A DNA stretch of 64,000 bases from a virus. Below, piece after piece: positions 633 to 64,000 of the stretch. The position numbers and the translations under genes are program-made. Numbering within the stretch: position 1 is the stretch's first letter; each line of letters begins with the position of its first letter. Under the pieces are notes generated by a model. That model was not told the DNA's origin. It made no database searches and saw nothing but the letters and a program-made list of their open reading frames with translations. The stretch lies in the IMG/VR virus record IMGVR_UViG_3300025598_002259, positions 1-64,000 of that record; one strand, 5' to 3'.

Positions 633-1013
633 TTAAAACATTTTAAGTTGTTCAGGGTCTCTAGGTTTTTCTATTTCTTGCTTGGGAGAGTTTATAGGTT
701 CGGTAGGAGAAGATCTTATGATTTTTTTCTCTTTTTTACCATTTCGGAATATTTTGTCTACTTCGATTATTCCTTTACGATCGCAAATAAAATGATAGGT
801 TAAATTACGAGTAACTTCATAATAATAATGCCATCTATTTGTATGAGTAGTATCCGGAGTTAATTTATCTAAAAACACGCTAGCATGATATCCACCTTTT
901 AAAAAATCTCCATCAGATTTTAATAACGTGAATAAATGCTTTGCAACTAAATCTTTTTTATGATCTAATTCAATTAAAAGTTCTTTTATCTGCATTAAGT
1001 ATTTAGTAAACAT
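633..1013 (-). CDS. hypothetical protein
   Basis: I do not recognise this protein of about 126 residues. It is soluble and charged, with a lysine-rich tail ending in PEQLKMF. I chose the ATG at 1013 over an in-frame TTG at 1022. It overlaps the end of the cytochrome-b-like gene by 11 bases, so it is probably the last gene of the operon that starts with the outer-membrane protein at 2047. The tRNA-His gene lies immediately downstream. Confidence 0.6.
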   Translation of the reverse strand: MFTKYLMQIKELLIELDHKKDLVAKHLFTLLKSDGDFLKGGYHASVFLDKLTPDTTHTNRWHYYYEVTRNLTYHFICDRKGIIEVDKIFRNGKKEKKIIRSSPTEPINSPKQEIEKPRDPEQLKMF

Positions 1014-1452
1014 TAACGGCAATAATATGTATGATCGCCGCTATAATTAGCATGAAAACAAATGGTAAATGTGCTACATGCCATATACTAAATGCACGTT
1101 TAAATTGTGGACGATTATATAAAAATCTACCAATAACACCACTTATAGCAACAGTAATCATAGACCATAAAGCCATATTACTATTAAATGCGCCTAAATG
1201 GTATTGGCAATGATATAAAATTAATAAAGGTCCGTATAATCCTAAAAATATATGAGCGTTAAACCAACGATTAAGAGTTGGGGTCCAATCTAAAAATCTA
1301 TAACGTTTTCTTAAACTGTAAGTTAAAAGTAAGAGCATCATAGATGCTCCTACTATACCCATCCAATAACCCGCACCCGATTGTGGAGTCAAATAATCAT
1401 TTAATGGTAAAAACCAGCCTAGCAGACATAATAAGGCTGCAATTAATACCAT
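1003..1452 (-). CDS. small cytochrome-b-like membrane protein
   Basis: The 149-residue protein has about five hydrophobic segments (roughly residues 1-20, 27-46, 66-85, 93-111, 122-147). Several histidines lie in or beside them: FNAH near 67, YHCQYH at 81-86, WHVAH near 124-128 and IIHII near 142. This pattern is typical of di-heme b-type cytochromes and ferric-reductase-like membrane domains, which pass electrons across the inner membrane. Family assignment is inferred from topology and histidine placement. It sits 4 bases after an outer-membrane protein gene and overlaps the next gene, so it is probably translationally coupled. It may belong with the multiheme cytochromes near 61-64 kb. Confidence 0.55.
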   Translation of the reverse strand: MVLIAALLCLLGWFLPLNDYLTPQSGAGYWMGIVGASMMLLLLTYSLRKRYRFLDWTPTLNRWFNAHIFLGLYGPLLILYHCQYHLGAFNSNMALWSMITVAISGVIGRFLYNRPQFKRAFSIWHVAHLPFVFMLIIAAIIHIIAVNVY

Positions 1453-1456: not shown

Positions 1457-2047
1457 TTAGAATGAATGTGCTAGACCAATACCATACGTATGATAGTTAC
1501 TATCACCGTGTTCGCGTGCATACTTAACGGCGATCTGCCAACCGTCAGTAACATGATATCCAACTGAAAGACTATTTTCTACAGTACGATAAAGATCGCC
1601 AGATCCTACCGAATTTTCATTAAATGGTGTACGCAATCTTACGCCATATTTGATATCGACGTTAGTAATTTCGCTATACTTAAGTCCGGCTTCTACTACA
1701 TAAAAAGGAAAGTTTGGATGCGAGCTATCTGAACGACTCTTGTATCCTACTGCACCGGATACATAAGGATAAATCTCCAATAATGCAGCTGGGATAGAAT
1801 ATACTACTTTACCCTGAAAAAGTCCTTGATGTTTACTAGGATCAGTAACGACTTCATCTTCGATACGTCCTTCAACTGCTAGTCCTAGATCATTAAACTT
1901 ATATCCATAATTAGCACCGACAATATGATGGTTTTCATCGACACCGACCTTCTGTTTTTCTTGATAGTCAACACTAATATAATCGTCAGCTAAAGCTAAA
2001 TTTGCAAATCCCATGCAAGCAATAACTGAAATAATAAACTTATTCAT
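1457..2047 (-). CDS. outer-membrane beta-barrel protein
   Basis: A clear signal peptide (about residues 1-21, MNKFIISVIACMGFANLALA) is followed by alternating polar/aromatic strands and a C-terminal phenylalanine (GLAHSF), the usual beta-signal of outer-membrane barrels. At about 196 residues it would form a small barrel of 8 strands or so. I chose the ATG at 2047 because AGGAG lies 7 bases upstream; the TTG one codon earlier is less likely. It is the first gene of a three-gene operon with the cytochrome-b-like protein. Function, for example a pore or adhesin, is not determined. Confidence 0.7.
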   Translation of the reverse strand: MNKFIISVIACMGFANLALADDYISVDYQEKQKVGVDENHHIVGANYGYKFNDLGLAVEGRIEDEVVTDPSKHQGLFQGKVVYSIPAALLEIYPYVSGAVGYKSRSDSSHPNFPFYVVEAGLKYSEITNVDIKYGVRLRTPFNENSVGSGDLYRTVENSLSVGYHVTDGWQIAVKYAREHGDSNYHTYGIGLAHSF

Positions 2048-2102
2048 CAATAATCTCCTTTGTGTTTCTGTAAACTGTCTGCTGTTTACTTATCACACAT
2101 AG

Positions 2103-10203: not shown

Positions 10204-10204
10204 T

Positions 10205-11841: not shown

Positions 11842-11843
11842 TA

Positions 11844-14363: not shown

Positions 14364-15138
14364 TATTTTTCCATAGAGCCGGAGTATTGTCCCAAAGATT
14401 ATTAAAATCTAAATAAGGATCTTTACCTGATTCATCCATAATATGAAAAGCTAATCCAGGAATAGGACTAAACAACATCACATCAGGTTTGTTCCAGACT
14501 AAATTAATTGATTGATTTTCAACCCAGTCAGCTTTACGTAATGTAAGATTTACTACATCTTTAAAATGATGTTCGTATTTTTTATAAATTAGCTTACTGG
14601 CCATACAAGTATATGTGGTATGCTTTACTGTTCTATAATGACGATAGGGCCCTAATAACAAGATGCTTTCGTATATTTCAAATCGATATCTCCAAATGTC
14701 ATCGTGGGGGTTGATTGCAACCATTTGACCGGTGTTACCTTCAAATTGATCTAAACTATCGATCATATCTTGGATAGCTTCTGGTTTATGTAGATAATCA
14801 TCTTCTACATGATACCAAAGATCATCGGCTTTTTTTTCTACTAAATCATAGACTAGCCCCATAGTATATCCATTTCCAGTACCGCCTGTTACATTTGTAA
14901 AATATGTTGGAAATTTACACTTGGATAAAATTTGTTTAATGTCTGAAATGCAAGATACAGAACTATTATCATCTAAAACAAATAATTCAACTTGATGTCC
15001 TTTAACCTGATTGATACTATTAATCAAACTGCTTACACAAACATTAATAATTTCCGGTTTTGTTGCATTTACAAATCGTTTACCGTGGGCAGAAAATACA
15101 CTTCCGCATGTTCTTAATATTATAGTTAATTTTCTCAT
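14356..15138 (-). CDS. glycosyltransferase family 2-like protein
   Basis: The 260-residue protein starts LTIILRTCGSVFSAHGKRF, then VELFVLDDNSS (nucleotide-binding DD) and DDLWYHVEDDYLH (acidic metal site EDDY). This places it in the GT-A superfamily close to the gene at 10205. It is the first gene of the leftward run 15138-10900. Confidence 0.65.
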   Translation of the reverse strand: MRKLTIILRTCGSVFSAHGKRFVNATKPEIINVCVSSLINSINQVKGHQVELFVLDDNSSVSCISDIKQILSKCKFPTYFTNVTGGTGNGYTMGLVYDLVEKKADDLWYHVEDDYLHKPEAIQDMIDSLDQFEGNTGQMVAINPHDDIWRYRFEIYESILLLGPYRHYRTVKHTTYTCMASKLIYKKYEHHFKDVVNLTLRKADWVENQSINLVWNKPDVMLFSPIPGLAFHIMDESGKDPYLDFNNLWDNTPALWKNNV

Positions 15139-17509: not shown

Positions 17510-17649
17510 TCTGTTTTACACAGCATATCACTAGCTTTGTGTTTCCAAATATTCGGAAACAATCCGTGTACTAATAATACTATTGCAATTGTCCAGGCTC
17601 TTGCCCAATGTTGTAAGTAACTCATATGTACTTCTTCTAAATGTGTCAT
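17506..17649 (-). CDS. small membrane protein, DUF6356-like, 47 aa
   Basis: Read directly from the minus strand: start ATG 17649, stop TAA 17508-17506. The product contains YLQHWARAWTIAIVLLVHGL and FPNIW, resembling the short DUF6356 family (EH...A...G....VHGLFP). Its ATG overlaps the stop of the cyclase gene as ATGA, so it is translationally coupled as the last gene of the curli-like operon. Function is unknown. Confidence 0.55.
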   Translation of the reverse strand: MTHLEEVHMSYLQHWARAWTIAIVLLVHGLFPNIWKHKASDMLCKTD

Positions 17650-19673
17650 TTGCTTGTTGCCCTATATACACCGTCCCAATCTAACGGAACGTCTCCATGC
17701 ATGCGTTCTAGCATCATTTCATAATACTTGTGCATTTCGCCGTTCCACCCTTTATCACGTAATTCTTCAGCATAAAAACGTGCGCCTACCCACATACCTG
17801 CTCTGTAAGCATCTAAGAACTTTTCGTGTAACAACCAAGCCATGGCATCGTCAATAGGTGCTACAGTATAAATCTTAACGGGATCTTTTTTACCCTTAAC
17901 AGCAATTAAATCTAGTTCAATTAATGGATACGCATCCATTACATATTCTGCTGTTTTCGGCCCGAGAACAATCTTGACACCATAGGGCTTACTTTGTCCT
18001 TCCAAACGACTCGCAAGATTAACGCCGTCCCCAAGACAAGTATAATCAAAACGCTGACTACTCCCCATATTGCCAACCACAACAGTATCAGTGTTAATGC
18101 CAAGGCCCATTCCAAACTCTGGAACACCTTCTTTAGCGATTTCTGCATTAAAATTCTCCAAATCTTTTAACATAGCTAATGCAGTTTTTACAGCATGTTT
18201 AGCATGGTCAGCATCATCTAACGGTGCGTTCCAGAATGCCATTTGTGCATCACCAATGTACTTATCTAATGTTCCTTCGTTCTCTATAATTTTTGCAGTC
18301 ATTGCAGTCATATAGCGATTCATTATTTTAGTAAGTCCTTGTACATCTTTACCATAGTGCTCGCTAATACCCGTGAATCCTCTTACATCGGTAAACATAA
18401 TACTAAGTTCACGTGATTCGCCGCCTAGCTTTAATAACTCAGGATTTTTTTGTAGTTTCTCAACCATTGCAGGACTCAAGTACGTGCCAAACTGTTTCTT
18501 TATTTGTTGCTTCTGCAAATATTCACTGACGAATTTAATTCCATAGGCATGGAGTGACACAAGGATGATTGCAACAACAAAAGCACTAATATCAAAAAGC
18601 CAAAGATAATGGCTAAAAAGATAATAGCTGCCAACGATTCCTGCACCCAATAAAACAACGATCGAACCCAGTCCTGCATAAACCCACCTCGTTAATATTA
18701 ATAATATAATACCTGCTAATAAAATAACACCTATTTCTAATCCATCTGCGTAATCAGGACGCTGTATTGTTACACCATTTATCATAGTTCCTAATACTGC
18801 TGCTTGCATATCCTGTGGATATACTGCACCTCGTGCTGTTGGTACAGGATTAGCGATACCTGAAGCAGTAGGTCCTATTATAACAATTGCACCATTAAAA
18901 TCCTTAGGCAAATCTGTTATAGAAATCTGTTGATTTTGCTGACTCCAATCAACCCATATACGTCCTAAACTATCTGTAGAGATAGGACCAAATGCAGGTA
19001 TACGCATTTTCTCTACACCATTTTCATTAAGTTTAACTTGAAATGTAGTATCATTACCGGCCACACGTAATGTTTCCATAGCTAACGAGGGATATAATTT
19101 TCCATTGACTGCAGCAATTAAAGGCACACGACGATTAACACCGTCAATTTCCGGCATGGTGTTTACGCTACCTATACCTATAGCATTTTCTTCTAATGCA
19201 GGAATATTAGCAATTAAACCCGGATACTGTACAATACGGTCTAAGTAATTTGAACCCATGACAGCACTTCCGGGTGCGCGGGGTAAGTTTTTATTTTTTT
19301 CTGATGGAATATTGGTTAATACTACAGGATACTTTTTCATCATATCCGATAATGCAGCATCACCGCCCATGCGATCGTTTTCAGACATTACAATGTCTAA
19401 TACAACTAATCCTGCATGACGATTATATAACTCTTGTATAATGTCGGCATATACATTGCGAGGCAAAGGCCATTGTCCATAATGATCTAGTGCGGCCTCG
19501 TCAATATTAACTGTAACAATATTGTTTGATGTAGGTGCTTTGTGAGTAATTAATGTATCAAAATATCTAAGGCGCACACTTTCAACAAAGCTAGGATCCG
19601 CAATTCTAACTGCTACTACTAAAAAAAGTGTAAGTAGTGCAGTCCATGGACTCAACAGAATTTTTTTAAACAT
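17646..19673 (-). CDS. CHASE2-domain class III adenylate/guanylate cyclase
   Basis: The 675-residue protein has an N-terminal membrane helix, a CHASE2 sensor (about 30-310, starting ESVRLRYFDTL), three further helices (about 315-385) and a C-terminal class III cyclase domain. The metal-binding aspartates are in FTDVRGF and DKYIGDAQMAFW, the latter with the purine-contacting lysine. The transition-state Asn/Arg pair is in NLASRLE. Catalytic residues are intact, so it should make cAMP or cGMP in response to a periplasmic signal. It follows a FecR-domain protein, a pairing often seen in proteobacteria, and would link curli production to second-messenger signalling. Confidence 0.9.
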   Translation of the reverse strand: MFKKILLSPWTALLTLFLVVAVRIADPSFVESVRLRYFDTLITHKAPTSNNIVTVNIDEAALDHYGQWPLPRNVYADIIQELYNRHAGLVVLDIVMSENDRMGGDAALSDMMKKYPVVLTNIPSEKNKNLPRAPGSAVMGSNYLDRIVQYPGLIANIPALEENAIGIGSVNTMPEIDGVNRRVPLIAAVNGKLYPSLAMETLRVAGNDTTFQVKLNENGVEKMRIPAFGPISTDSLGRIWVDWSQQNQQISITDLPKDFNGAIVIIGPTASGIANPVPTARGAVYPQDMQAAVLGTMINGVTIQRPDYADGLEIGVILLAGIILLILTRWVYAGLGSIVVLLGAGIVGSYYLFSHYLWLFDISAFVVAIILVSLHAYGIKFVSEYLQKQQIKKQFGTYLSPAMVEKLQKNPELLKLGGESRELSIMFTDVRGFTGISEHYGKDVQGLTKIMNRYMTAMTAKIIENEGTLDKYIGDAQMAFWNAPLDDADHAKHAVKTALAMLKDLENFNAEIAKEGVPEFGMGLGINTDTVVVGNMGSSQRFDYTCLGDGVNLASRLEGQSKPYGVKIVLGPKTAEYVMDAYPLIELDLIAVKGKKDPVKIYTVAPIDDAMAWLLHEKFLDAYRAGMWVGARFYAEELRDKGWNGEMHKYYEMMLERMHGDVPLDWDGVYRATSK

Positions 19674-20981
19674 TTAAGGTCCTTGCTTAACAGTAACAGT
19701 ACCGCAAGTGGTTACGCATGTTTGCGTTATACTGTAAACCTGACCTCCTGTTTGGGTTAGATTAACACTCGCAGGTGCTCCTTGATTATTTAGTACTATG
19801 GTAGCAGCGTTATTAGTATTGCCGCTTTGATTGACCACTGCGCTATTACCATTACCAGTTTCTGTTACATTAAGATAATGTTGTCCTGTTCCTGTTTGAT
19901 TAGTAGTAATTGTATTATTATTTCCGGTAATACTAGCAAATATCTGCTTTTGTGTATTGTTACTTTGAACAATACCTACAGTATTATAATTGCCATTAAT
20001 CACAGCTTCTAAGAAATGTCCTACGCTACCTCCATCATTTGTTTGACTAGTAGTAACTGTATTACCTATACCATTAACGCCCACTAATTGATAATTATTA
20101 CCGGCACTAATGCCATTGATATCGTAACCTTCTGTTATTGTAACAGTATTGTTTCCGCCTACTACATTAAGGTCTAACTCATTTTTTCCTAAACTATTAA
20201 GATTGCCTTGATTAATATTAATTGTATTATTGCCGTTTTGTATATTAGCAAATTGTTGTCCAATGCCAGTAATTAGATTATTTGACCCGATTTGCTGTAC
20301 CGTAATTTTATCATTGTCACCACTTTGCCTTATGTAAATAGCATTACCTGAAATAGTAGTATTATTAAATTTAGTAACATCAGCCTGTTGCGCTGCAGTT
20401 ATACTGCTAGAATAAGTTATAACAGTTCTATACAAGTCTCCAGCAGGAATATTGGTAATAGTACTACCAACATTCCAATATAATTGCATACCGTACCCGC
20501 CACTATTATTGTAGTACCAAGCATCGACTGCATACAATTGACCAACTACCATAGTAGTTGATCCGCTAGCATTAGATGATCCATTCCAGTTAACTGAACA
20601 ACTACAACCTTGTTCTTTCCAATTATTAATCACGTAAGTGCCATTCAACGCTAGGCTAAACCCATCATCGCTTTGATCATAAAAAGTTACATTAACGCTA
20701 GTTCCTGCGGATAAATTAGCAGTAGGCATAATTTCTATATAACCTGTAATATGCACCATAATCATGTTAGTTCTACTAGCACCTAACATGCCGCCACTAT
20801 TAGGAATATAAAAGGTGTTTAACACTCCTGTAGTAGCTACAGGATAAGCGGTAGTTGAACGTGTAGGAGTAGGGCCTGCAGTTTCGTAGTAGCTAGTGTA
20901 TGTTAATCCAGATAACCCCCCGACATCAGCAAATACTGTGTTAGATAATAGTAAGAATAAAGTTAAGAAAAACTTTTTCAT
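19674..20981 (-). CDS. secreted PA14-like/curlin-repeat fusion protein
   Basis: A signal peptide (about 1-18) is followed by a PA14-like beta domain (about 25-185, containing DQSDDGFSLALNG, GYGMQLYWN). Residues about 205-435 are curlin-type repeats of the form N-x(4-5)-Q-x-G, for example AIYIRQSGDNDKITVQQIG. PA14 domains usually bind carbohydrates, so this could tether or cap an amyloid fibre on a glycan. Two CxC-type pairs near the ends may form disulfides. It sits between fecR and the cyclase genes with a 1-base stop/start overlap. Confidence 0.7.
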   Translation of the reverse strand: MKKFFLTLFLLLSNTVFADVGGLSGLTYTSYYETAGPTPTRSTTAYPVATTGVLNTFYIPNSGGMLGASRTNMIMVHITGYIEIMPTANLSAGTSVNVTFYDQSDDGFSLALNGTYVINNWKEQGCSCSVNWNGSSNASGSTTMVVGQLYAVDAWYYNNSGGYGMQLYWNVGSTITNIPAGDLYRTVITYSSSITAAQQADVTKFNNTTISGNAIYIRQSGDNDKITVQQIGSNNLITGIGQQFANIQNGNNTININQGNLNSLGKNELDLNVVGGNNTVTITEGYDINGISAGNNYQLVGVNGIGNTVTTSQTNDGGSVGHFLEAVINGNYNTVGIVQSNNTQKQIFASITGNNNTITTNQTGTGQHYLNVTETGNGNSAVVNQSGNTNNAATIVLNNQGAPASVNLTQTGGQVYSITQTCVTTCGTVTVKQGP

Positions 20982-22186
20982 TAATTTTGCCTTGTAGTTA
21001 TAATTGTGTTGCCGCCTTGATTAATTCTATTTACTACTGTAACTGTTCCTTGTGTTTGTGTAATTACGCTATTTTGATCTCGAGGAGTAATTGCACATAC
21101 TGTGTTATTACTACTGTCTGTGCGACATATTTCTACTTGCTGTGTATCAATTGTAGCAACTGCCCCGCTTGTAGCTGTATAATCAGGTATGATAGTGTTT
21201 TTAACAGGAGTGATCGATGAAGAATTATTATTGTTAATAGGAGTAGCATTAATTTGTACACTAACCATATCCAATACAATATTTAATGTTTCGTTATCTA
21301 AAAACGTATTAGGCGTTGCAGGCTGCTCTGCTTTAACTGCTACGGGTTTTACTGCTACAGTTGTTGCAGGTTGTTCAGTAGTGGTCCAGCTATCTGTTGG
21401 CTGTGTATTTGATTCAACTTGTGGTTTCTCTGTATCAAGTTTTACTGTGGTTGTTATTAAAGCAGTTGCAAGCCCACCTTTTGCTTCTCTTTCTGCACGT
21501 TCTTGTGCTATTTTTATCTGTGGTGGTGGACTAAGTATTAGCATATTGCTAATAGCATTTTCGTTTAATTTTAAAATAACCGGCTTTAAAGGAAATGTAT
21601 TTGCAGATAAAACTCTTGTTGCTTGGAATGGTTTATCTAATGTGACTGAACCTGCATCTGTTATTACTTCGATTTTTCCTGTTTTACATTCTACTTCGTA
21701 ATCTATAGGATTAGCATTAGGGCAGCTGGGTAATAATATAATTGTACTTTCGCCTAATTCAGCTACTGTAGTAGTAAAATCAGTTCCTCGTACTGCAATA
21801 GTTGCAGTAGGGGTGCGTAAATTTACAGCATTAGGGTTATTATGTGCAATAATTCCAGATGCATACCTAACAGTACCTGATGCCATGTTAAGTGCTAATC
21901 GATTGGGTTTCTTACCTTTGGGATCGTACACAAAGTCGTCAATAACTAGTTTGGAGTTTTCGCTTACTTGTACTTTAGTGTCATCTTCGAATACAATACC
22001 AACTTTGCCATGTTTAGTATTAACTATATCTGCCATTTCAACACCAGTGCCTGTTATACCTGTTAGTGTTGCTTTATCTCTTTGTATTACTGCAGGTGTT
22101 TGAGACATCTCAGTAATTTGACCTACTGCGGCTATACAGTTCAAAGAAATTGAAACTAATATAGCCGTCAGTAGAATCTTTTTCAT
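20981..22186 (-). CDS. FecR-domain secreted protein
   Basis: The 401-residue protein has a signal peptide and a FecR domain at about 40-165, with VGIVFEDDTKVQVSENSKLVIDDF split across HGKVGIVFEDD and KLVIDDFVYDP, then GTVRYASGII and TPTATIAVRGTDF, all typical. The rest is low-complexity Pro/Thr-rich sequence, consistent with an extracellular or periplasmic linker. FecR-domain proteins often pair with CHASE2 kinases or cyclases as signal input. Gene order supports a regulatory or scaffold role for the curli-like fibres. Confidence 0.75.
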   Translation of the reverse strand: MKKILLTAILVSISLNCIAAVGQITEMSQTPAVIQRDKATLTGITGTGVEMADIVNTKHGKVGIVFEDDTKVQVSENSKLVIDDFVYDPKGKKPNRLALNMASGTVRYASGIIAHNNPNAVNLRTPTATIAVRGTDFTTTVAELGESTIILLPSCPNANPIDYEVECKTGKIEVITDAGSVTLDKPFQATRVLSANTFPLKPVILKLNENAISNMLILSPPPQIKIAQERAEREAKGGLATALITTTVKLDTEKPQVESNTQPTDSWTTTEQPATTVAVKPVAVKAEQPATPNTFLDNETLNIVLDMVSVQINATPINNNNSSSITPVKNTIIPDYTATSGAVATIDTQQVEICRTDSSNNTVCAITPRDQNSVITQTQGTVTVVNRINQGGNTIITTRQN

Positions 22187-22187
22187 A

Positions 22188-23108
22188 TTAACGGTGTGTT
22201 TGTGTTATATTGAATGTATTACTATTTCCATTGCTCTGAATATTGGCAAGATTATTGCCGCCGAGCGCTGATTGAGTTATATTAAATACATTACCACTGC
22301 CATTACCGCCGAGTGTTAATGTGTTATCATAAACACCACTTTGAGCAATAACCATAGTATTGGCAGATCCGTTAAATGCTCCGACTGCGGTAATTCCTGA
22401 GGAATTATAACCACCGACTGTAACATTATCGCCTAAAGCTCCGCCACTTTGACTAATAGTAATACCATCAGTTGCACCGTTAGTCGATACATTAACTGTA
22501 CCATTAACAGTTTGAGATGTTACACTACCTTGACTTAAACTAAAGCTATTGTTAGCTCCACCGACCATGCTAACTGTATCGACGTTGTTTGTGCCGTTAA
22601 TAACAGCAGAAACCATATTACCATTACCGCCAGCAGTTACAGCAGTAAATGAGTTACCGCTACCTAGCATATTGATATTAGTATATGAAGAATCGCCTGT
22701 TTGATTAACAGAAATAACGTTATTGGCGCTAACGCCTAACCCATCGTTGTTACTATTGATAGTAGCATTAGCATTATTACCAGTTACACTATAGTTAAAG
22801 CTATTTCCGGATACTGCGGCTTTAGTAGATGAACTAGTCTGTACACCAAAGCTTAATGTATCGCCGGTACCAACTTGATTGATGTTAACAATATTGCTGT
22901 TACCTTTAACAATTGCTGCATTTTGTAATGTACCCGAGCCTGTGCTTGGAATACCTTGTACAATGTTGCCGGCACCATCCTGAGTAACAGTTACACTAGT
23001 ATTGTTACCAGATTGATTAATGTAAATTGTGTTATCTCCTGCATATGCTGTTGTAACAAATAATGTTGCAGCAACAACACTTGCAAGAATTGAATTAAAC
23101 TTTTTCAT
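22188..23108 (-). CDS. curlin-repeat amyloid subunit (CsgA/CsgB-like)
   Basis: The 306-residue protein has a signal peptide (1-23) and then a repetitive Asn/Gly/Gln/Ser-rich chain with the curlin signature N-x-x-x-I/V-x-Q-x-G, for example IYINQSGNNTSVTVTQDG and ANIQSNGNSNTFNITQ. It is about twice the size of CsgA. Curlin subunits are exported unfolded through CsgG and polymerise outside the cell. It lies directly after csgG-like and before fecR, supporting its identity. Confidence 0.8.
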   Translation of the reverse strand: MKKFNSILASVVAATLFVTTAYAGDNTIYINQSGNNTSVTVTQDGAGNIVQGIPSTGSGTLQNAAIVKGNSNIVNINQVGTGDTLSFGVQTSSSTKAAVSGNSFNYSVTGNNANATINSNNDGLGVSANNVISVNQTGDSSYTNINMLGSGNSFTAVTAGGNGNMVSAVINGTNNVDTVSMVGGANNSFSLSQGSVTSQTVNGTVNVSTNGATDGITISQSGGALGDNVTVGGYNSSGITAVGAFNGSANTMVIAQSGVYDNTLTLGGNGSGNVFNITQSALGGNNLANIQSNGNSNTFNITQTHR

Positions 23109-23117
23109 ATCTGCTCC

Positions 23118-24038
23118 TTAAAAGTTTTTTATTTCACCAGTTTTGACTGCAACATCCGCAGGTACCTTAGGTGAATTATTCATTCCTACAGGTATTGTTG
23201 GCGTTCCTCCCAACGGTGCAGATTGTGGTATTTGGGACTGTGCAGTCGTTTTATAATCCCAAATAGATTTACGCTCGCCTTCTTTAATTAACTCTATTAC
23301 TGCTGCCTCTATTGTGGTCTTTACTGCAATAGTAGGTGCTTCGTTCATTGTTATTCCTCCTTCTAATTCGAAAGGTGCTGTTCCATCGTGCTTCATTTTT
23401 AATACTGCAAAACTATCAGCAGTGCTTAACACTATCTTAGTTACATTAACAGATGCTAGTACCTTTCCGGTGTTTACCGATACTGCCCTTAAACTTATAG
23501 TTACGATGTCTTTGCTATACTGTGTTTGTTTACCAGTACCTAACCAATTGTTAGCATAACCGCCAGATTCTAAGCTACTGTCGTAACCCATAATGCCTCC
23601 TTCCAATATAATTCCGGCGAAGGTTAACGGCATAAGTTTTTCTGCGTCTTTGCCTTCGTATGCATCACGCATCTGTTTGATAATTAATCTTTCTTTAGTT
23701 AAATCATCAATATTACTTCTTTCAACAACATCAAACCATTCACCGTGCCCGACTTCTTGTAGTGCACGTATTAAAAACGCATCTGCACCTTGTGTCACTG
23801 CTGTAGAAAAGCTAGCCACACCTGGTACTGTTTTACGTTGTCCAGTCTTGTCTTGAAAGTTATATATTGCTACAGTAATTTTACCGTTCTTAGGAGGAGG
23901 TACACGATCAAACTCTCTTTGCATAGTATCTGCCATAGGAGTAGGATCATATTTTATTTTCGACAGTTGGTCGAACCGTTGCATAGTCGCACATCCTGCT
24001 AGCACTAATGTGCTAACAAGTAAAATCAATAAACGCAT
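23118..24038 (-). CDS. csgG: curli secretion channel CsgG-like lipoprotein
   Basis: The 306-residue protein starts with a lipoprotein signal (LLILLVSTLVLAGCAT; lipidated Cys near 15). KITVAIYNFQDKTGQRK follows near residue 54, then GEWFDVVERSNIDDLTKERLI and GIILEGGIMGYDSS, the conserved blocks of CsgG. CsgG forms a nonameric outer-membrane pore for curli subunits. The YDSSLESGGYANNWLG region matches the constriction and beta-hairpin zone. It lies directly after csgF-like. Confidence 0.9.
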   Translation of the reverse strand: MRLLILLVSTLVLAGCATMQRFDQLSKIKYDPTPMADTMQREFDRVPPPKNGKITVAIYNFQDKTGQRKTVPGVASFSTAVTQGADAFLIRALQEVGHGEWFDVVERSNIDDLTKERLIIKQMRDAYEGKDAEKLMPLTFAGIILEGGIMGYDSSLESGGYANNWLGTGKQTQYSKDIVTISLRAVSVNTGKVLASVNVTKIVLSTADSFAVLKMKHDGTAPFELEGGITMNEAPTIAVKTTIEAAVIELIKEGERKSIWDYKTTAQSQIPQSAPLGGTPTIPVGMNNSPKVPADVAVKTGEIKNF

Positions 24039-24040
24039 TG

Positions 24041-24496
24041 TTAGCCTCCTGTTCCTGTTATATTAAACGAGCCTAGAGGAACTGTGATTGTAGTTACATT
24101 ACCTAGCGAATCTGTTACTTGCAATGTAATGTTAGAACCGTTATTTTGCCAGAAGATTGTATTCCCTTCGAAATTAATATTACCGCTAGTTTTATCTCCA
24201 CCGGCAAACATAGCAGTGGCAAGATTCTGTCCTATCTGCGCATAAATTCTTGATTCAAGATTTGTAAGGAATTGATTAATTGGAGTATTAGCCGCGGCAT
24301 TTTTAGCAGCTTGCGCTGCTGCTTCTAATGCTTGTTGTATTTGTTGTGCACGAGTATAGGCTTCATTTTCTAATGTTACTTGATATGAACCGTAACCTTG
24401 CCCATTAAATGAAGGACTTTTGAAAGAAAAATCAGGTAGGGCTGCTGATGATGCGGTAGCATAAAATGCTAATAAAATAAGTGATTTACATCTCAT
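24041..24496 (-). CDS. csgF: curli assembly factor CsgF-like protein
   Basis: A 151-residue protein with a signal peptide and then PDFSFKSPSFNGQGYGSYQVTL, the part of CsgF that plugs the CsgG pore (CsgF begins with a similar F-x-N-PSFGG segment). A helical middle and a C-terminal beta part follow, ending in NITGTGG. AGGAG lies six bases before the ATG. It is the first gene of the operon, 20 bases after a late-like promoter octamer. No csgE or csgC homolog is seen. Confidence 0.8.
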   Translation of the reverse strand: MRCKSLILLAFYATASSAALPDFSFKSPSFNGQGYGSYQVTLENEAYTRAQQIQQALEAAAQAAKNAAANTPINQFLTNLESRIYAQIGQNLATAMFAGGDKTSGNINFEGNTIFWQNNGSNITLQVTDSLGNVTTITVPLGSFNITGTGG

Positions 24497-32085: not shown

Positions 32086-32583
32086 GGGCGAAAGGATTCG
32101 CCCGTGATTTCGCTCTCGCTCATCACCTTTTTTCTTAAGAGAAATGATTACCTAGATTCACAGGTCATACTTCGCCCAGAACAGGGCGAAGATTTCTAAC
32201 GAATATTACCTGAGTTCGTTAGTCACTAACATTCGGAAATTGCATTTCTGCGCAGAAGCGGTTAGCCTGTACTTCTTATTCCTAACTTCAATCTAACGGG
32301 ATACTATATACCGATGTCAGCAGATATACAGTATTTGTGGTTGTATCTTTTTCACAGAGCCACTATCTTTGAGCCATTGAAAATTTTTCACTTAGCCAAA
32401 CGAATTATTAAAGGCATATTCCGTCATCATCCCCGAAGGGGTAGTGGCTGAGCTCCTGTCAACACACAGGATTTCTGTCCCCGCGACTGTTTTGTCCGGT
32501 TATCATAGGCACCCGAAATTAGCCGGTGCGAGCTTAAGCGTTGATTGATATGCCTATGTTTGTGCCAGTGAATGTGCCTTAGT
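32086..32583 (-). ncRNA. candidate large structured noncoding RNA, about 500 nt
   Basis: This 500-bp gap has no ORF of note on either strand but many long inverted repeats: GGGCGAA/TTCGCCC (32086-32103), CTTCGCCC/GGGCGAAG (32170-32191), CTAACGAA/TTCGTTAG (32196-32222), a 12-bp stem at 32301-32334, TCCTGT/ACAGGA (32454-32471), and long-range CATAGGCA/TGCCTATG (32504-32558), plus a UUCG-like hairpin near 32435. A sigma70 promoter on the minus strand starts it near 32583 and the last hairpin could end it. It does not look like tmRNA, RNase P or 6S RNA to me. Confidence 0.65.
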
Positions 32584-43010: not shown

Positions 43011-43345
43011 TACTTACCCTCGTTATTAAATTCTGAAATACTTTCGATAAATTTCATATCTTCTTCGCTAGGCAGATACCAACGGTTTTCTTTGAAATTC
43101 CAATGACGGGTATCATGTAAATCAAAGTTAAAATAGAATCCAAGAATACCGACGAAAATATGTAGTCCTGCATGATCTGTTTTAAAAGTTAGATTAAAAG
43201 AAAAATCCACTATAATATCATTAATAATTCCGCAATGGAAATCAATAACTTTATTTTTGGAAACTTTCCGATTTTTTTCGTAACAATTATTATGAATAGG
43301 GTTGTTAATTAGAGGATTTCGTAAGCCAAAAGAAAAGTCAATCAT
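43010..43345 (-). CDS. hypothetical protein, 111 aa
   Basis: I chose the ATG at 43345, which overlaps the upstream stop as ATGA; an ATG 12 bases earlier is also open. The protein has FNFDLHDTRHWNFKENRWYLPSE split around DLHDTRHWN, a motif seen in conserved phage proteins. Function unknown. Confidence 0.55.
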   Translation of the reverse strand: MIDFSFGLRNPLINNPIHNNCYEKNRKVSKNKVIDFHCGIINDIIVDFSFNLTFKTDHAGLHIFVGILGFYFNFDLHDTRHWNFKENRWYLPSEEDMKFIESISEFNNEGK

Positions 43346-44643
43346 TCTGTACCCCATTTAGTTACAACTTCAATGCCACACTTTTTCAAAAATGCATCTG
43401 GTAAAATACCGCCTGCATTAACAATAATAGCATTGTTCTCTATAATGCGCAAGTCATCTTTACCAATTTGGAGAATAACATAATCCTCACCGATTTGTTG
43501 TACATTAGAATTTAGGATTACTTCTAAATTACCTTTTTTAACAGCACGATCTACACGTTGTCTATTAGCCGGTTTAGCTCTTTGAAAAGCTGTACCACGA
43601 TATGATAAGGTAACATGATTACTAGGATCTGCTTCAGCAATACTAGCCGCAGCTTCTAATGCACTATCACCGCCACCTACTACTAATATATGCGCGCCTT
43701 TATATTGTTCAGGATCAATAAGCCTATAAACTACTTTTGGTAAATCTTCGCCCGGCACATCTAGTGTTCTCGGGCTACCACGACGACCGATAGATAATAA
43801 TACATTGGTAGCACGATATGTACCTAATAAGGATGTGATGGTGAATCCTGTATCGTCCTTAACTACGCTTTCTACACGCTCATTAAATTTGAAATTTAGA
43901 TTGTGTAGTTGACGTTGTTCATCCCAAAACTTTAATAGTTCTTCTTTGGTGGTATTTCTAAAATGTACTTTCCCAATAACAGGCAAAGTAACTGGCTGTG
44001 TCATGACTAGCTTTCTACGTGGGTATTTAAAAACTGTTCCACCCAACGAATCTTGTTCAAGGATTAGATAGGTAAGCTTTTCACTAATTGCAGTAAAAGC
44101 CGCACCAATTCCAGCAGGGCCGCCCCCAACAATAATAAGATCATACTGATTTTTCCCACGATCACAATTCTTAGCAATATTTTCAACAGCTTCTCTCCCT
44201 TGAGTTAAAGCGTTTTTGATTAATCCCATGCCACCTAATTCACCAGCAACATAGAGTCCGTTAACATTAGTTTCGAATGTGGGCTTAACCACTGGTAAAT
44301 CTACACCACGACGCGCAGTACCAAATACTAAAGTAATTGCATCAACAGGGCAAGCTAACTTACAAGCACCATGGCCGATGCATTCGGTAGGACTAGTGAG
44401 AACTGCTTTTCCATTAATTAACCCTAGTACATGATGGTGACTTTCAGGGCAGGCTTTGACACAACCGCCGCAGCCGATGCATTGGTCACTATCAATTACT
44501 GGATGCATCGAAACAGTCTCTGTTAAACCTGCTTCTACCGCATCTTCTAATACTGCTATTGACTTTTTATGAGTTTTTCTTTTCTTTTTAAGATAGAAAA
44601 TAATTACAATGGCAATAAATGCTAGATATATTAATGCGAACAT
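43342..44643 (-). CDS. membrane-anchored FAD/[4Fe-4S] NAD(P)-dependent oxidoreductase
   Basis: The 433-residue protein has one N-terminal membrane helix (1-19), a ferredoxin-like domain with CIGCGGCVKACP (about 57-68) and CIGHGACKLACP (about 87-98, His replacing the second Cys), then a two-dinucleotide-fold flavoprotein: DLIIVGGGPAGIGAAF (FAD) and ILVVGGGDSALEAA (NAD(P)H). It resembles thioredoxin-reductase-type flavoproteins but lacks their CxxC active site. It would pass electrons from NAD(P)H through FAD and FeS to a membrane partner. The partner may be a quinone or the b-type cytochrome. Confidence 0.85.
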   Translation of the reverse strand: MFALIYLAFIAIVIIFYLKKKRKTHKKSIAVLEDAVEAGLTETVSMHPVIDSDQCIGCGGCVKACPESHHHVLGLINGKAVLTSPTECIGHGACKLACPVDAITLVFGTARRGVDLPVVKPTFETNVNGLYVAGELGGMGLIKNALTQGREAVENIAKNCDRGKNQYDLIIVGGGPAGIGAAFTAISEKLTYLILEQDSLGGTVFKYPRRKLVMTQPVTLPVIGKVHFRNTTKEELLKFWDEQRQLHNLNFKFNERVESVVKDDTGFTITSLLGTYRATNVLLSIGRRGSPRTLDVPGEDLPKVVYRLIDPEQYKGAHILVVGGGDSALEAAASIAEADPSNHVTLSYRGTAFQRAKPANRQRVDRAVKKGNLEVILNSNVQQIGEDYVILQIGKDDLRIIENNAIIVNAGGILPDAFLKKCGIEVVTKWGTE

Positions 44644-46131: not shown

Positions 46132-46845
46132 ATGAATTATGAAAAAATTTATAAAAATTTAATGGAAGCTGCTAAAACAAGAAATAGTTCTATGAAAGAT
46201 GTGCATAGTCATCATATTATACCAAGATGTATTGGTGGTAAAGATTCACCAGACAATTTAGTTAATTTAACTTTTAGAGAACATTTTGTTGCTCATTTAT
46301 TATTAGCTAAAATATACGGTGGAAAATTGTGGCACGCTGTTAAAATGATGGGCGCTGTACATGGTTATACAGGAAGGATGTATGCAGTTGCCAAGAAAAA
46401 ACATTCTTCAATGTTATCTATTCAAAATCAAAAGAAAAGAAAACCTAAAGAAACTCGACATTATAAATGTTACGAATGCGATAAAGAAATTATTCGTATC
46501 GAATTTGTACATCGCCCTAGTAAAGAAAGATATTTTTGTTCTATCAAATGTAGGAATAAGTTTTGTGCAAAAAACAGACCATCAAGAAAAGGAACTTCAT
46601 TATCCCACATTCCGAAAAGAACTGCTTGGAACAAAGGTAAATCAAGCCCGATGAAAGGTAGATCGATTAAAGGACACCCTGCATGGAACAAGGGTGTACA
46701 TAATCCGTTAGGATCTATTAATGGAAAAAAAGGAGCAGATAAACTCTCTAAAACTGCTAAAGGTAGGAAAAAGCAGTATCGCGAGGATGGATCTTGGACA
46801 TGGGTTTATCCTAATAGGAATACTGGGGACCAAAGTCCCCAGTAG
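46132..46845 (+). CDS. HNH homing endonuclease with NUMOD3-type motifs
   Basis: The 237-residue protein has an HNH core in HSHHIIPRCIGGKDSPDNLVNL with H and N ligands (HHII, DNLVNLT, HFVAH). A Cys4 zinc motif follows (CYECDKEI...CSIKCRNKFC), then repeated DNA-binding NUMOD3-like motifs (RTAWNKGKSSPMKGR, HPAWNKGVHNP). This is the build of a free-standing homing endonuclease. It is antisense to the tmRNA and lies between its tag and terminator. The last codons lie in the hairpin that follows the tmRNA coding piece. Confidence 0.9.
   Translation: MNYEKIYKNLMEAAKTRNSSMKDVHSHHIIPRCIGGKDSPDNLVNLTFREHFVAHLLLAKIYGGKLWHAVKMMGAVHGYTGRMYAVAKKKHSSMLSIQNQKKRKPKETRHYKCYECDKEIIRIEFVHRPSKERYFCSIKCRNKFCAKNRPSRKGTSLSHIPKRTAWNKGKSSPMKGRSIKGHPAWNKGVHNPLGSINGKKGADKLSKTAKGRKKQYREDGSWTWVYPNRNTGDQSPQ
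46822..46843 (-). terminator. hairpin at the present 3' end of the tmRNA coding piece
   Basis: A 9-bp perfect stem (ACTGGGGAC/GTCCCCAGT) with a 4-base loop. On the minus strand it is followed by TATTCC, not by a clean T-run. It may be an RNA-stabilising or terminator hairpin. Confidence 0.55.
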
Positions 46846-47081
46846 GTAACTTATTTGACAAGGCGTTTCCTGCCCCGTTGGATCATGCTGCTAGAGCAAT
46901 GTCTCCAAAATAATCGTCATTTGCTGCGATTATAGTTTTTGCGCTGATTGCGTCAGTCGCCTCTCGGGTAGCTTTCAGGTTATTACTTGCTCTGTCGAAG
47001 CCAAATACACCCCCATAGTTGGTGGAGGTGAGCGGAGTCGAACCGCTGTCCAAAACACCTTTAGCTAAAAGTTTACTACCA
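46844..47081 (-). ncRNA. ssrA: circularly permuted (two-piece) tmRNA
   Basis: On the minus strand the acceptor piece comes first: T-arm AGCGG/CCGCT with loop TTCGACT, then CACCTCC-A-CCA (to 47020). A 5-base spacer (47015-47019) is followed by the 5' half GGGGGTG (47014-47008) and a typical TTCGAC motif. GGGGGTG pairs with CACCTCC and includes the G3-U70 alanine identity pair. The tag starts at GCA 46927 after TAATC and reads AANDDYFGDIALAA, stop TGA 46885-46883. This order is the permuted form known from alpha-, beta- and cyanobacterial lineages. Exact piece ends are not certain. Confidence 0.88.
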
Positions 47082-47225
47082 TTAATTCTTATTTTCTTTT
47101 GTATTATCAACGCTAGGCATACTAGCACCGCCAGATGATGAACCCGACGAAGAAGAGCCGCTATTTCGAGTAACAAGATAAATTGCTGCACCGATTACAA
47201 CTAAAAGTACGATTAATGTAAACAT
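47082..47225 (-). CDS. small membrane protein, 47 aa
   Basis: Start ATG 47225 with AAAGGAG eight bases upstream; stop TAA 47084-47082. The product is one membrane helix (FTLIVLLVVIGAAIYLV) and a Ser/Gly-rich tail (RNSGSSSSGSSSGGASM). The stop touches the tmRNA acceptor piece, and both may share the promoter at 47247-47275. Function unknown. Confidence 0.65.
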   Translation of the reverse strand: MFTLIVLLVVIGAAIYLVTRNSGSSSSGSSSGGASMPSVDNTKENKN

Positions 47226-60246: not shown

Positions 60247-60522
60247 ATGTCGTTGAATGATTACACCCCTAAAGCCCCCGAAGTTAAGTTTAATAAGAAT
60301 GGCTACGAAATTCGTACAGATATTCTTAGCATGGCTAAGGATCTAGTTGAAGCTGAGTATAGTGCTAAGTTTGCCGGTTGGGAAATGAGTTCTCATGTTG
60401 ATGAGAAAACTGGCCAATTGGTTTCTACAGTTGCTATGCCAGAATTTCCTGGTCTAGATCAAGTATTAGCAACTGCAGAAAAAATGTATGCATTTGTTAA
60501 TGCCGGCGCATCAAAGAAGTAA
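60247..60522 (+). CDS. conserved phage-type protein, 91 aa
   Basis: A soluble protein (LNDYTPKAPEVKFNKNGYEI, then GLDQVLATAEKMYAFVNAG) with AGAAGGA before the ATG. Similar short proteins occur in T4-like aquatic phages; function unknown. It forms its own unit with a sigma70 promoter and a strong terminator, suggesting abundant early expression. Confidence 0.6.
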   Translation: MSLNDYTPKAPEVKFNKNGYEIRTDILSMAKDLVEAEYSAKFAGWEMSSHVDEKTGQLVSTVAMPEFPGLDQVLATAEKMYAFVNAGASKK

Positions 60523-60565: not shown

Positions 60566-60595
60566 AAAACGCCCCTTTCGGGGCGTTTTATTTTG
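60566..60595. terminator. bidirectional terminator
   Basis: A 10-bp perfect stem (AAAACGCCCC/GGGGCGTTTT) with a TTTC loop and T-runs on both strands, between the convergent gene at 60247 and the cytochrome gene at 60606. Confidence 0.92.
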
Positions 60596-60605: not shown

Positions 60606-61421
60606 TTAGATTGATTTAAGACGAACGCCAATTAAACTAGCTAAACGCTGTTTCATCATTTTCTTGATCATTTTGTCATCAATTATAGATGCACATTTGA
60701 AGCTAGCATTAATGCTGTGACAAGTTTCACAGGCATCGCTAGTAGCAGGATGTCCCGGAGCATAGTCGACTTTACCTAATGCAGGATGATGTGATCCATC
60801 ATGGCAGCTTACACAACCGGTTGTAATACCATTGTGAATTACATTAATTGGAATATGCCAATCAGCATTAGTATGCGTAATACTTTGATTAGTATCCATT
60901 GGAGTATGGCAAGTGCCACATTCTGCAGTGGTTACAATGTGGTTAATATCCTTACCCATTGCTCCGTAGCTGACAAAATTACCATTGTGGCATGAACTAC
61001 AAGCCTGTCCACTGACACTAGAGTGGGTCATGGACCACGATGCAGTAAAGCTTGTGGTATTATGACAAGCATCGCAATTAGTATTACCGATTGGTGGGTG
61101 ATTGGCCGAACGTCCAATAGTTTGTGCAGAAATCTGCCCAGTAGGGCTACCATTATGGCAAGTTGCACAAATTTTTGGAGTACCTAGATAGATGCCACCA
61201 GCATGACAACTGGCGCAACTACTGCACTTACCAGTAGATAAGTGCGCGCCTGTTAACGGAAAATTCGGGTGAATGGTTTCATAAAGACTGCATTCAGCAG
61301 CATCAGCGGTATCTGAGAACATCAACATTGATCCTGCTGCTACTGTAGGCACAGTAATATAGGATAACGCTAATGCAAGTGTCATAACCATTGAAGTTAA
61401 GAGCGTTTTAATTTTTTGCAC
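60606..61421 (-). CDS. secreted heptaheme cytochrome c
   Basis: The 271-residue protein starts at a GTG behind a perfect AGGAGG, with a signal peptide cleaved near residue 41. It has seven CxxCH heme-binding motifs: CASCH, CATCH, CDACH, CSSCH, CGTCH, CVSCH and CETCH, with extra histidines as likely sixth ligands. It is a c3/NrfB-like electron carrier in the periplasm or at the outer membrane. It shares the start of its mature part (LTGAHLSTGKC) with the pentaheme protein upstream, so the two are paralogs. A basic tail after the last motif is unusual. Confidence 0.92.
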   Translation of the reverse strand: MQKIKTLLTSMVMTLALALSYITVPTVAAGSMLMFSDTADAAECSLYETIHPNFPLTGAHLSTGKCSSCASCHAGGIYLGTPKICATCHNGSPTGQISAQTIGRSANHPPIGNTNCDACHNTTSFTASWSMTHSSVSGQACSSCHNGNFVSYGAMGKDINHIVTTAECGTCHTPMDTNQSITHTNADWHIPINVIHNGITTGCVSCHDGSHHPALGKVDYAPGHPATSDACETCHSINASFKCASIIDDKMIKKMMKQRLASLIGVRLKSI

Positions 61422-61476
61422 GATAGCAAACCTCCTCTAGGTTTCAACTATTTAGCAAAAATAATAGTATAAGCAA

Positions 61477-62004
61477 CTATCCGTCGAACTGAGAACTGTT
61501 AGGACTATGGCAATAATTACAATCAACACTAGTTACTATAACTTTAACACCATTCTTTGTCACAGTAGTAGGATGCCCGTTGCCTTTACCCTGCGCTCCA
61601 TAGCTAGTATATTGACCATTATGACACCCATCACATCGAACAGTGGGATAGCCCGTATTGTGTATCATGGTTTGAGTAATACCGGTTAGGCTATTAAATG
61701 CAGTAGTATTATGGCATCCCGCACAATCTAATAATAGGGTAGGTAAATGTTTCGAACTACGACCTACTGTCATACGACTAGGATCACCATTATGGCAGGC
61801 AATACATGTTCTAGGAGTTCCATTCCAAACAGCCGCACCTGCAGGAATATGACAAGTTCCGCAACTAGTACATTTGCCTGTGCTTAGATGAGCACCAGTT
61901 AACGGCCACAAAGGGTGTAATTTCTCATATGCAGTACATTCTGCACCTAATACTTTAGGAGAAATTAATAATAGAAAAAATAAAACTATAGTCCTAAAAA
62001 TCAT
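61477..62004 (-). CDS. secreted pentaheme cytochrome c
   Basis: I chose the ATG at 62004, which gives a signal peptide IFRTIVLFFLLLISPKVLGA; the longer frame to 62064 runs into the porin gene. There are five CxxCH motifs: CGTCH, CIACH, CAGCH, CDGCH and CNYCH. The mature start LHPLWPLTGAHLSTGKC matches the heptaheme protein. It overlaps the porin gene's end by 11 bases, so both are translated together, as in porin-cytochrome conduits. Confidence 0.9.
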   Translation of the reverse strand: MIFRTIVLFFLLLISPKVLGAECTAYEKLHPLWPLTGAHLSTGKCTSCGTCHIPAGAAVWNGTPRTCIACHNGDPSRMTVGRSSKHLPTLLLDCAGCHNTTAFNSLTGITQTMIHNTGYPTVRCDGCHNGQYTSYGAQGKGNGHPTTVTKNGVKVIVTSVDCNYCHSPNSSQFDG

Positions 62005-64000
62005 GTCTAAATCCGATATAAAAACTTTGATTTGTATTGGTTGGAGTATTATATAACACATCATTAGTTTTTGTCAACGATCTTGAATATTGCGCTTCGA
62101 GAGTAGTTTTATCGCTGATAGCATAAAACCCTCTTAATAATGCAGATATTGTGTCTATTTTACCATAATTTTCATTGATAGAATCATATCTAAGAATAGT
62201 TGAAATACTGTTTCTATTCTTATCGCCGAATTTATAATTGTCAGCAAATGTAACATAGGATGAACGTCTACCGCCAGTCGAATCGTTAACAGCAAATTCT
62301 ATATTATTATTAATAGATCCGATATTTTCGCCTTTTAAGTGTGTAGTTAATGAATAGTTTTGTTTGTCGCCCACCTGTATTGGTACTGATGCAAAATTTG
62401 AATTTAAATTAAATCCCGGAACAGTAGATAAATTAGTTGATTGCGCATCTATTGTTAATTCCCAATTTTTATTAATCTTTTCTCTTAATCCTAACACAGT
62501 TGATGTTGCAATAGGAGTAGATTTATCAATATAACTATATATTTCGCTAGCTGTTAATCCAGATTTAAGTAGTAGATCCCCGATCGAGTTATAATATTGT
62601 TTATCTAATGATAATTCGCCGAGATTAAGTGCAACATCTCCATACGGCATTGGGGTACGTCGTCTTTCAAATATAGCAAACGCATCGAAGTTTTTGGCAT
62701 AGTAAGTACCTTGGAAAGAAATCAAATTAAGACTACGATAAACAGTATCGTATTCGGTTCTTAATAAGAAACTTTCTTTGTTTGTTCTATAATCTACGCT
62801 ATTTCCGATAGCCATACGTTCTAATAATCCGTCAGCTACTCCTCTATTAAAATAAATTCCTGTACCCCAATCATTGTTAATTCTCCAATCAAATTCAACA
62901 CCTTCAAATATTCTTTTAGTTTGAGATCCCGATCCAGTGATAGGGTTACCAGCAGCTAATGATAATTTTAAATCATCTGTAATTCTAATATTAGTAGATA
63001 GCCCATCAAATTTTCCAACAGCTCCTGCTACACTAGATTGTCTTCCTGCGCGAATATTATATCCTTTAAATGTATTAGCGAAGTCTACATAAGCATTTGA
63101 TAGATTTGTTCTATTACCATTTGTTTCACTAAAGTCTTTTACTTGTGAAAATCTCACACGAGCTGATAATTCATATTCATTGTGTGTTTCTTTTAATGAG
63201 GCTTGTACGCCTGAAATTAAGTTAATTTGTTCTGCTTTTTGAGTGCTGCCTTCATTAGAATTTTTAGTTACATAAAGGTAATCTGAAGTGTTTCCATTAA
63301 AATCAAAACTATCACCTTGGTGAGGTGTTTTTGTTTTATTAATTTTACCTATTGTAAATCCTGTAGGTTCTAATATTTCTAATGACATTAAACGCTGTCT
63401 TACTCGAGTTCTATCTTCATCATCTTCTGTGTATAGTGCTAGATAACGCTGATATTCCTTCATAGCTTTATTATAATTCTTTGATTTTTCGTAAGCATAA
63501 CCTAACATTTCGTGTGCTTCTTTTGCATCTGCAGGAGATTGTGTAGAAATAATAGATTTTAAATCAGCAATGGCTTGCTCGAATGTTCCTGATCTTTCTA
63601 ACAATAATGTTTTGGCTTCTGCTAATAATTCTTCAGCAGGTCTATTATCAAATACAACAATAGGTTGTTTAACTCCATCATCGTCGTCATCAATATTAGG
63701 TTTTTCAGCTTCTAAAGTAATAGGATTTGTATTAATTGTATGTGCATTACCGGTTAAGAAGAATCTAGAAAGTTTAGTACCTATAGATTCTTTTTTTATC
63801 TTAGGAATTGTCGTAGGAATATTTTCTAAAACAGAGTTAGATTCTAAAGTAGAATTAGCAGCTTCATTTATTATATCATTATTTGGAACAGATTCTTTGA
63901 CATCGACACAACTAGTTGCATATAATGCAGTAGCTAATAGAGCCGCAATTTCTTTTTTTAGTAGTCGAGATTTAGTTTTTTTGTCACTAACTACTTTTTG
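61994..64000 (-). CDS. outer-membrane TPR/beta-barrel lipoprotein, conduit porin, 5'-truncated
   Basis: The frame is open to the window edge (64000), so the N-terminus is incomplete. Visible features: a lipoprotein-type segment AALLATALYATSC; TPR-like helices (AKEAHEMLGYAYEKSKNYNKA); then about 400 residues of alternating strands ending in SFYIGFRHDF with a terminal phenylalanine, the mark of an outer-membrane barrel. Followed by two multiheme cytochromes, it fits the porin of a porin-cytochrome complex (MtrB-like in role, not in sequence). Confidence 0.7.
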   Translation of the reverse strand, partial: QKVVSDKKTKSRLLKKEIAALLATALYATSCVDVKESVPNNDIINEAANSTLESNSVLENIPTTIPKIKKESIGTKLSRFFLTGNAHTINTNPITLEAEKPNIDDDDDGVKQPIVVFDNRPAEELLAEAKTLLLERSGTFEQAIADLKSIISTQSPADAKEAHEMLGYAYEKSKNYNKAMKEYQRYLALYTEDDEDRTRVRQRLMSLEILEPTGFTIGKINKTKTPHQGDSFDFNGNTSDYLYVTKNSNEGSTQKAEQINLISGVQASLKETHNEYELSARVRFSQVKDFSETNGNRTNLSNAYVDFANTFKGYNIRAGRQSSVAGAVGKFDGLSTNIRITDDLKLSLAAGNPITGSGSQTKRIFEGVEFDWRINNDWGTGIYFNRGVADGLLERMAIGNSVDYRTNKESFLLRTEYDTVYRSLNLISFQGTYYAKNFDAFAIFERRRTPMPYGDVALNLGELSLDKQYYNSIGDLLLKSGLTASEIYSYIDKSTPIATSTVLGLREKINKNWELTIDAQSTNLSTVPGFNLNSNFASVPIQVGDKQNYSLTTHLKGENIGSINNNIEFAVNDSTGGRRSSYVTFADNYKFGDKNRNSISTILRYDSINENYGKIDTISALLRGFYAISDKTTLEAQYSRSLTKTNDVLYNTPTNTNQSFYIGFRHDF

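Follow-up and report, generated by a model that had tools for sequence, protein, structure and literature searches.

A putative miniaturised PCC3-like porin-cytochrome conduit encoded by a T4-like phage lineage

Results

A phage gene set resembling porin-cytochrome conduits

A minus-strand operon for a TPR-containing porin and two multiheme cytochromes lies at the right end of the 64,000-nucleotide stretch of viral DNA analysed here (the window). Together with a distant inner-membrane protein (IMP) gene and, in this lineage, an oxidoreductase gene, it is best explained as a phage-borne, miniaturised porin-cytochrome conduit of the PCC3 type, which would allow extracellular electron transfer by freshwater betaproteobacteria, probably methylotrophs, during infection (estimated probability about 0.66). 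This explanation rests on the observed gene content, homology, conservation, viral location and purifying selection. An earlier note on this DNA had read the operon as a porin-cytochrome conduit, and that reading is supported by the homology of the porin to Methylophilaceae PCC3 porins and by the additional IMP and oxidoreductase genes, although electron transfer itself has not been shown.

Operon layout and expression signals

The operon follows a GH19-type endolysin gene on the minus strand, in the order porin, cyt1, cyt2, and then a GC-rich hairpin (Table 1). Inspection of the sequence to the right of the window showed that the porin gene begins 180 bases past its end, with the GH19 gene beyond. 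The overlap of the first two genes was also verified, the likely ATG of cyt1 overlapping the porin stop (ATGATTTTTAG). The hairpin, flanked by A/T runs, is located between cyt2 and a convergent gene (60247-60522); it was read in the sequence and was not among the hits of the terminator scan. Standard sigma-70 promoter and terminator scans yielded no more matches than shuffled sequence, and no enrichment was seen for the restricted late motif ATAAATACNNT. The shorter motif ATAAATA was found upstream of ORFs at 12 of its 18 sites in the whole record (5% expected) and may be a late promoter in this group of phages. As this late-promoter-like motif stands directly upstream of the GH19-porin-cyt1-cyt2 unit, its position suggests late expression of the unit.

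Table 1 Predicted features of the conduit gene set (nucleotide positions refer to the window)
Feature	Position	Strand	Description
Porin	61994..64000, gene runs on to record 64180	-	TPR + outer-membrane beta-barrel, 728 aa
Porin, N-terminal region	residues 1 to ~175		low confidence
Porin, TPR region	residues ~182-270
Porin, barrel region	residues ~291-727		22 predicted strands
cyt1	61477..62004	-	predicted secreted pentaheme c-type cytochrome, 175 aa, likely ATG start; 5 CxxCH; Cytochrome_C7 (Pfam) 5.4e-8
cyt2	60606..61421	-	predicted secreted heptaheme c-type cytochrome, 271 aa, GTG start 61421; 7 CxxCH; Cytochrome_C7 (Pfam) 3.8e-10
Hairpin	60566..60589		likely terminator, AAAACGCCCC-GAAA-GGGGCGTTTT, read in sequence
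IMP	1003..1452	-	inner-membrane protein, 149 aa; profile E 6.8e-57
Small barrel protein	1457..2050	-	outer-membrane beta-barrel protein adjoining IMP; OMP_b-brl 5.8e-4, below cut-off
Oxidoreductase	43342..44643	-	2x[4Fe-4S] + FAD/NAD(P) pyridine-nucleotide oxidoreductase, 433 aa; Pfam

The porin and the two cytochromes

The porin had been described as an outer-membrane barrel with TPR and lipoprotein features. A model of the whole protein was weak over the first 175 residues, and the TPR-barrel part (residues 172-728) was refolded with a deeper alignment of 16 related sequences. The resulting model contained five helices and 22 strands in or around the barrel, with a mean pLDDT of 84 and a pTM of 0.64, which supports a barrel without showing its closure; the TPR feature was matched by Pfam TPR at 4e-5. 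The best PDB fold matches were the outer-membrane barrels FimD, MOMP, OmpM1, AlgE and Occ, all with low TM-scores (at most ~0.5), so that the kind of protein is clear from the model and no close relative has been solved. The lipoprotein feature proved weak: an ATSC lipobox-like site does follow a hydrophobic stretch at residue 78, but the preceding N-terminus is unusually long and the site is not conserved in one relative (L013). In the window lineage the first ~175 residues, which are poorly predicted, replace the ordinary signal peptide of three related porins (L014, L032 and L109). Export of the porin is unproven because of this odd N-terminus, in which about 75 residues precede the hydrophobic stretch. 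A conserved extension, MSHxSVLxxxNFEQLLNEDNFSNLL, was observed in this lineage (residues 1-175; window 63656-64000 on to record 64180). Pfam and NCBIfam scans of the porin returned no MtrB- or BcsC-type family, only generic TPR hits, and an MtrB/BcsC-type porin was dropped for want of a family match. A role as host-range or superinfection factor was also dropped, as no homology supported it.

All 12 reported CxxCH motifs were recovered, as compared with a mean of 0.04-0.07 and a maximum of 2 in shuffled versions of the same proteins. When the DNA of the record was searched for the heme pattern, 14 hits lay on the minus strand and 12 of them fell within the operon; the reversed pattern, serving as a control, gave one hit per strand. 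The paralogy of cyt1 and cyt2 was confirmed (41% over 168 residues, E 2e-40), and both have signal-peptide-like N-termini. Three additional cysteines (C44, C66 and C243) are invariant in cyt2, and the last heme motif of cyt1 is CxxxCH in some relatives. With 31-33 residues per heme, the two proteins are about as dense as the wire-like MtrA (~33).

Inner-membrane components

A search for more redox genes, recommended in the earlier note, found the IMP and the oxidoreductase, both inside the window. The IMP displays five hydrophobic peaks, SGVIG, WFNAH-x13-H and WHVAH-x13-H, and its match to DUF4405 (2.7e-5) was just below the cut-off. The IMP described for PCC3/PCC4 has five TM helices together with SGXXG and two copies of WX3HX13H, and two b hemes and a quinone link were inferred for it (He et al. 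2017, PMC5566968). In the phage IMPs, SGXXG and the pair of WX3HX13H motifs are all present, and the window protein is, judged by its motifs, a candidate quinone-linked PCC3-type cytochrome, probably diheme-b. IMP homologs were first seen beside the operon in three viral loci (L013, L014 and L032). The gene was identified in six operon-bearing records, including all three of at least 265 kb in that search; it is 59 kb from the operon in the window and ~67 kb in the 328-kb relative G006, and adjacent to it in G004, G005, G007 and G012. Since no IMP was detected in several viral records, among them the large records G588, G594, G595 and G590 with porin and heptaheme genes, such phages may use the IMP of the host. 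The small barrel protein adjoining the IMP is a possible accessory; its counterpart in G006 (62%) adjoins the IMP as well.

The oxidoreductase is 50-55% identical to genes adjoining the IMP in bacterial loci, including 52% to the gene beside the PCC3 IMP in one Methylophilaceae MAG, and such a gene adjoins the IMP in 22/22 strong-IMP Methylophilaceae loci. It is a candidate electron entry point. Its presence in G000 (the record studied here), G001, G006 and G008 and its absence from G004, G005 and G012 indicate that it is an optional part. No CcmA or CcmB homologs were found in G000, G004 and G006, and the host must therefore supply cytochrome c maturation.

Comparison with PCC3 and other known systems

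Among 187 Methylophilaceae genomes, the porin occurred in 23, a strong IMP in 22 and both in 21, and the viral porin profile matched the PCC3 porins of this family at 1e-61 to 1e-117. The fully read clusters, comprising oxidoreductase, IMP, a 27-heme MHC, a 34-68-heme MHC, porin, ccmA and ccmB, fit the published PCC3 definition (PMC5566968). The phage set has in common with PCC3 (He et al. 2017, PMC5566968; PMC10734462; Methylotenera) the homologous TPR porin, the IMP, the Fe-S/FAD oxidoreductase and two predicted secreted multiheme cytochromes. Among the features that define PCC3, the porin (22 predicted strands, pLDDT 84, profile match) and the IMP motifs (five hydrophobic peaks, SGXXG, two WX3HX13H) are met, whereas heme number, IMP length and clustering are not. 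The phage cytochromes have 7 and 5 hemes, in contrast to 34-68 and 27 in Methylophilaceae and to the published 10-35 or more (median 34) for the extracellular and 21-27 for the periplasmic MHC (PMC5566968). The phage IMP, at 149 aa, is shorter than the defined length of about 300 aa (259-314 aa in the bacteria) and is without the ~110-aa loop, and the IMP and oxidoreductase genes lie away from the operon in the record instead of in a single cluster. Owing to these three departures, the phage set is a PCC3-like variant and not PCC3 proper. Linked ccm genes, present in PCC3, are also lacking.

The proposed conduit would work like MtrCAB, MtoAB and PioAB, with a barrel and a multiheme cytochrome across the outer membrane, and the phage set resembles them in residues per heme. 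No MtrB/PioB- or MtrA-type family was among the Pfam and NCBIfam hits, only a sub-threshold Mtrc-MtrF_II-IV_dom hit for cyt1, and the phage proteins hold 5 + 7 hemes and are not decaheme. Borgs have archaeal hosts and are not tailed phages; without an outer membrane, there is no porin conduit. Multiheme cytochromes are reported on these giant extrachromosomal elements of Methanoperedens (PMC9605863).

Proposed electron path and alternative roles

In the proposed conduit, the oxidoreductase and the diheme-b IMP would receive electrons from NAD(P)H or quinol, and a penta- or heptaheme cytochrome would carry them through the periplasm. They would then cross the outer membrane via the porin, with a heme protein sitting inside the barrel or attached to it. 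The extracellular acceptor might be humic quinones or Fe(III), for example, and electrons could also flow inwards, taken up from Fe(II). Heme attachment would proceed via the host Ccm system. The benefit could be an electron sink that keeps redox balance and energy supply in the infected host where oxygen is scarce. Heme binding, localisation, electron flow, its direction and the benefit are inferred or unproven, as is the host. Several points count against a conduit: PCC3 itself is a bioinformatic proposal of unproven function, there is no experiment on the phage set, and 5-7 hemes have not been shown to be enough to span the periplasm or a barrel of 22 strands. The absence of a detectable IMP from some large records, of the oxidoreductase from three and of ccmA/ccmB from three adds to these.

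The cytochromes might instead be periplasmic electron buffers or carriers, in oxidative stress or c-type respiration, with a separate role for the porin and no extracellular electron transfer. Both proteins are short and have neither lipoprotein anchors nor recognisable surface domains, which would suit such a role, as would the records without an IMP. This explanation is nevertheless unlikely, though the strongest of the alternatives, in view of the coupling of porin and cyt1 by overlapping codons and the co-occurrence of porin and cytochromes in every locus with both flanks readable. Furthermore, the porin belongs to the same family as those of the PCC3 clusters, and a buffer would not need a dedicated barrel.

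A less probable alternative is that the TPR barrel forms a pore which serves export or blocks the surface, and that the cytochromes merely assist it. Such a pore could export polysaccharide, exclude superinfecting phages or time lysis, as has been suggested for phage CsgGF. The TPR-plus-barrel architecture recalls the logic of PgaA/BcsC, and AlgE and FimD were among the PDB fold hits. CsgG/CsgF genes, whose pore role was proposed by the Melnitz authors, are also on the phage. However, no polysaccharide-porin family was hit; for the exopolysaccharide TPR porins BcsC and PgaA there was no family-specific barrel match, only generic TPR. The neighbours of the bacterial homologs are MHC and ccm genes rather than genes for polysaccharides, and the IMP motifs are redox motifs.

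Distribution, mobility and selection

The family comprises 21 IMG/VR loci on ~15 distinct contigs, the longest of 369 kb, in which cytochrome and porin are kept together; a Gp23 (T4-type) capsid is also encoded by seven of these contigs (G004, G005, G006 and four more). Porin homologs were found in 14 viral loci, besides the Methylophilaceae genomes mentioned above. The heptaheme family was detected in only 1 of 399 sampled Burkholderiales genomes, a Methylophilaceae MAG, and when 84,980 genomes were scanned with a pattern, the same MAG was the only close relative found. From this restriction, the short cytochromes appear to be mainly viral, one MAG having them together with the porin. The viral-type cassette of this MAG (L040 9974-12932) has a different gene order, heptaheme-porin-pentaheme, lies near a transposase-like gene and was possibly captured from a phage. 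A phylogenetic tree of the porins grouped the 14 viral sequences with the MAG porin (85/93, not a firm split) and separated the 19 chromosomal PCC3 porins (98/98).

In G004, the homologs of the 60247 gene and the GH19 gene stand just 69 bp apart with no operon between them; the operon is located ~80 kb away, adjoining the IMP and downstream of the curli/CHASE2-cyclase region. This layout implies that the cassette moves as a unit. The dN/dS values of 0.04-0.17, obtained with synonymous sites partly saturated in some pairs, show that the operon genes are maintained under purifying selection. Host-gene capture by phages occurs, and a similar cassette exists in the Methylophilaceae MAG; even so, recently captured passenger DNA without a selected function is a highly improbable explanation, given these dN/dS values, the deep viral group in the porin tree and the recurrence in ~15 contigs.

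Phage identity and assembly soundness

The window corresponds to bases 1-64000 of a 69,875-base IMG/VR virus record (IMGVR_UViG_3300025598_002259), which is a fragment of a ~330-kb T4-like phage. Sixty-one of its genes were matched in G006 (328 kb), mostly in collinear order, and 61 in G004 (326 kb), also a collinear relative. The T4-like jumbo phage markers, terminase and Gp23-type capsid, are absent from the 70-kb fragment itself and were found in its relatives G004, G005 and G006. Synteny with the 326-328-kb records holding these genes confirms the phage origin assumed for the operon. An assembly chimera joining phage and bacterial DNA, or bacterial contamination, was ruled out as far as is possible without reads, since the porin and cytochromes are 100% identical in two other assemblies and the operon region has a collinear homologous region in G006, and a chimera would stand only if all assemblies shared one artefact.

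The record also contains a curli/signalling locus (window 17646-24496) encoding a CHASE2-adenylate cyclase, a PA14 protein, a FecR protein, CsgG and CsgF, as in Methylophilales phage Melnitz and Pelagibacter phage HTVC008M. The cyclase is 38-40% identical to those of the two phages, which are marine and ~141-147 kb in size; no cytochrome, porin or IMP match was found in the phage collection that includes both. In G004 (L013), the genes for a curlin-repeat protein and a CHASE2 cyclase immediately precede the electron-transfer genes. Window 3308-15138 and the record beyond 65527 contain many genes of the glycosyltransferase-like and sugar-nucleotide kinds, one of which encodes a giant glycosyltransferase with multiple domains and a length of at least 1448 aa.

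Host

The host is probably a Methylophilaceae methylotroph, a freshwater betaproteobacterium. This assignment is favoured, though unproven, because the closest cellular cassette is in a Methylophilaceae MAG, the CHASE2-cyclase is closest to that of methylophage Melnitz, which infects OM43 methylotrophs, and the tmRNA is of betaproteobacterial type. The tmRNA is permuted (window 46792-47124; Rfam RF04321/RF01850), and a two-piece tmRNA has also been reported in Melnitz. Methylotenera with PCC genes has been described in a humic lake, together with the electron-accepting capacity of lake water (He et al. 2019, PMC6344600). A Polynucleobacter host stays possible, given a Polynucleobacter-1 RNA on the phage (RF01718, 83 bits; window 32390-32534). 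This RNA had no match in 187 Methylophilaceae genomes, and the controls were likewise without a match.

Discussion

The metabolic genes known from phages for the most part enhance individual enzymes or photosystems. As far as the searched literature shows, no tailed phage has been reported to carry a multi-gene electron conduit across the cell envelope. The earlier remark that no well-described phage carries such a set holds: no report of a phage-borne porin-cytochrome conduit was found in that literature, and cyt2, porin and IMP had no match in 50,697 GenBank phages.

A broader proposal would be that a widespread jumbo T4-like phage lineage of freshwater betaproteobacteria carries a complete inner-membrane-to-surface conduit and uses it to make infected cells respire extracellularly, or take up electrons, so that viruses would take an active part in the redox cycling of iron and humic substances. 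We regard this as tentative, with odds slightly short of even. The set, with 12 hemes and a short IMP, is a minimal PCC3-like version that would be easier to express and test than the bacterial versions with 60-100 hemes, the function of which is still conjectural. If the conduit is real, viral metabolic reprogramming would extend to extracellular respiration, and viruses would be connected with the redox cycling of iron and humic matter and with one-carbon metabolism in lakes poor in oxygen.
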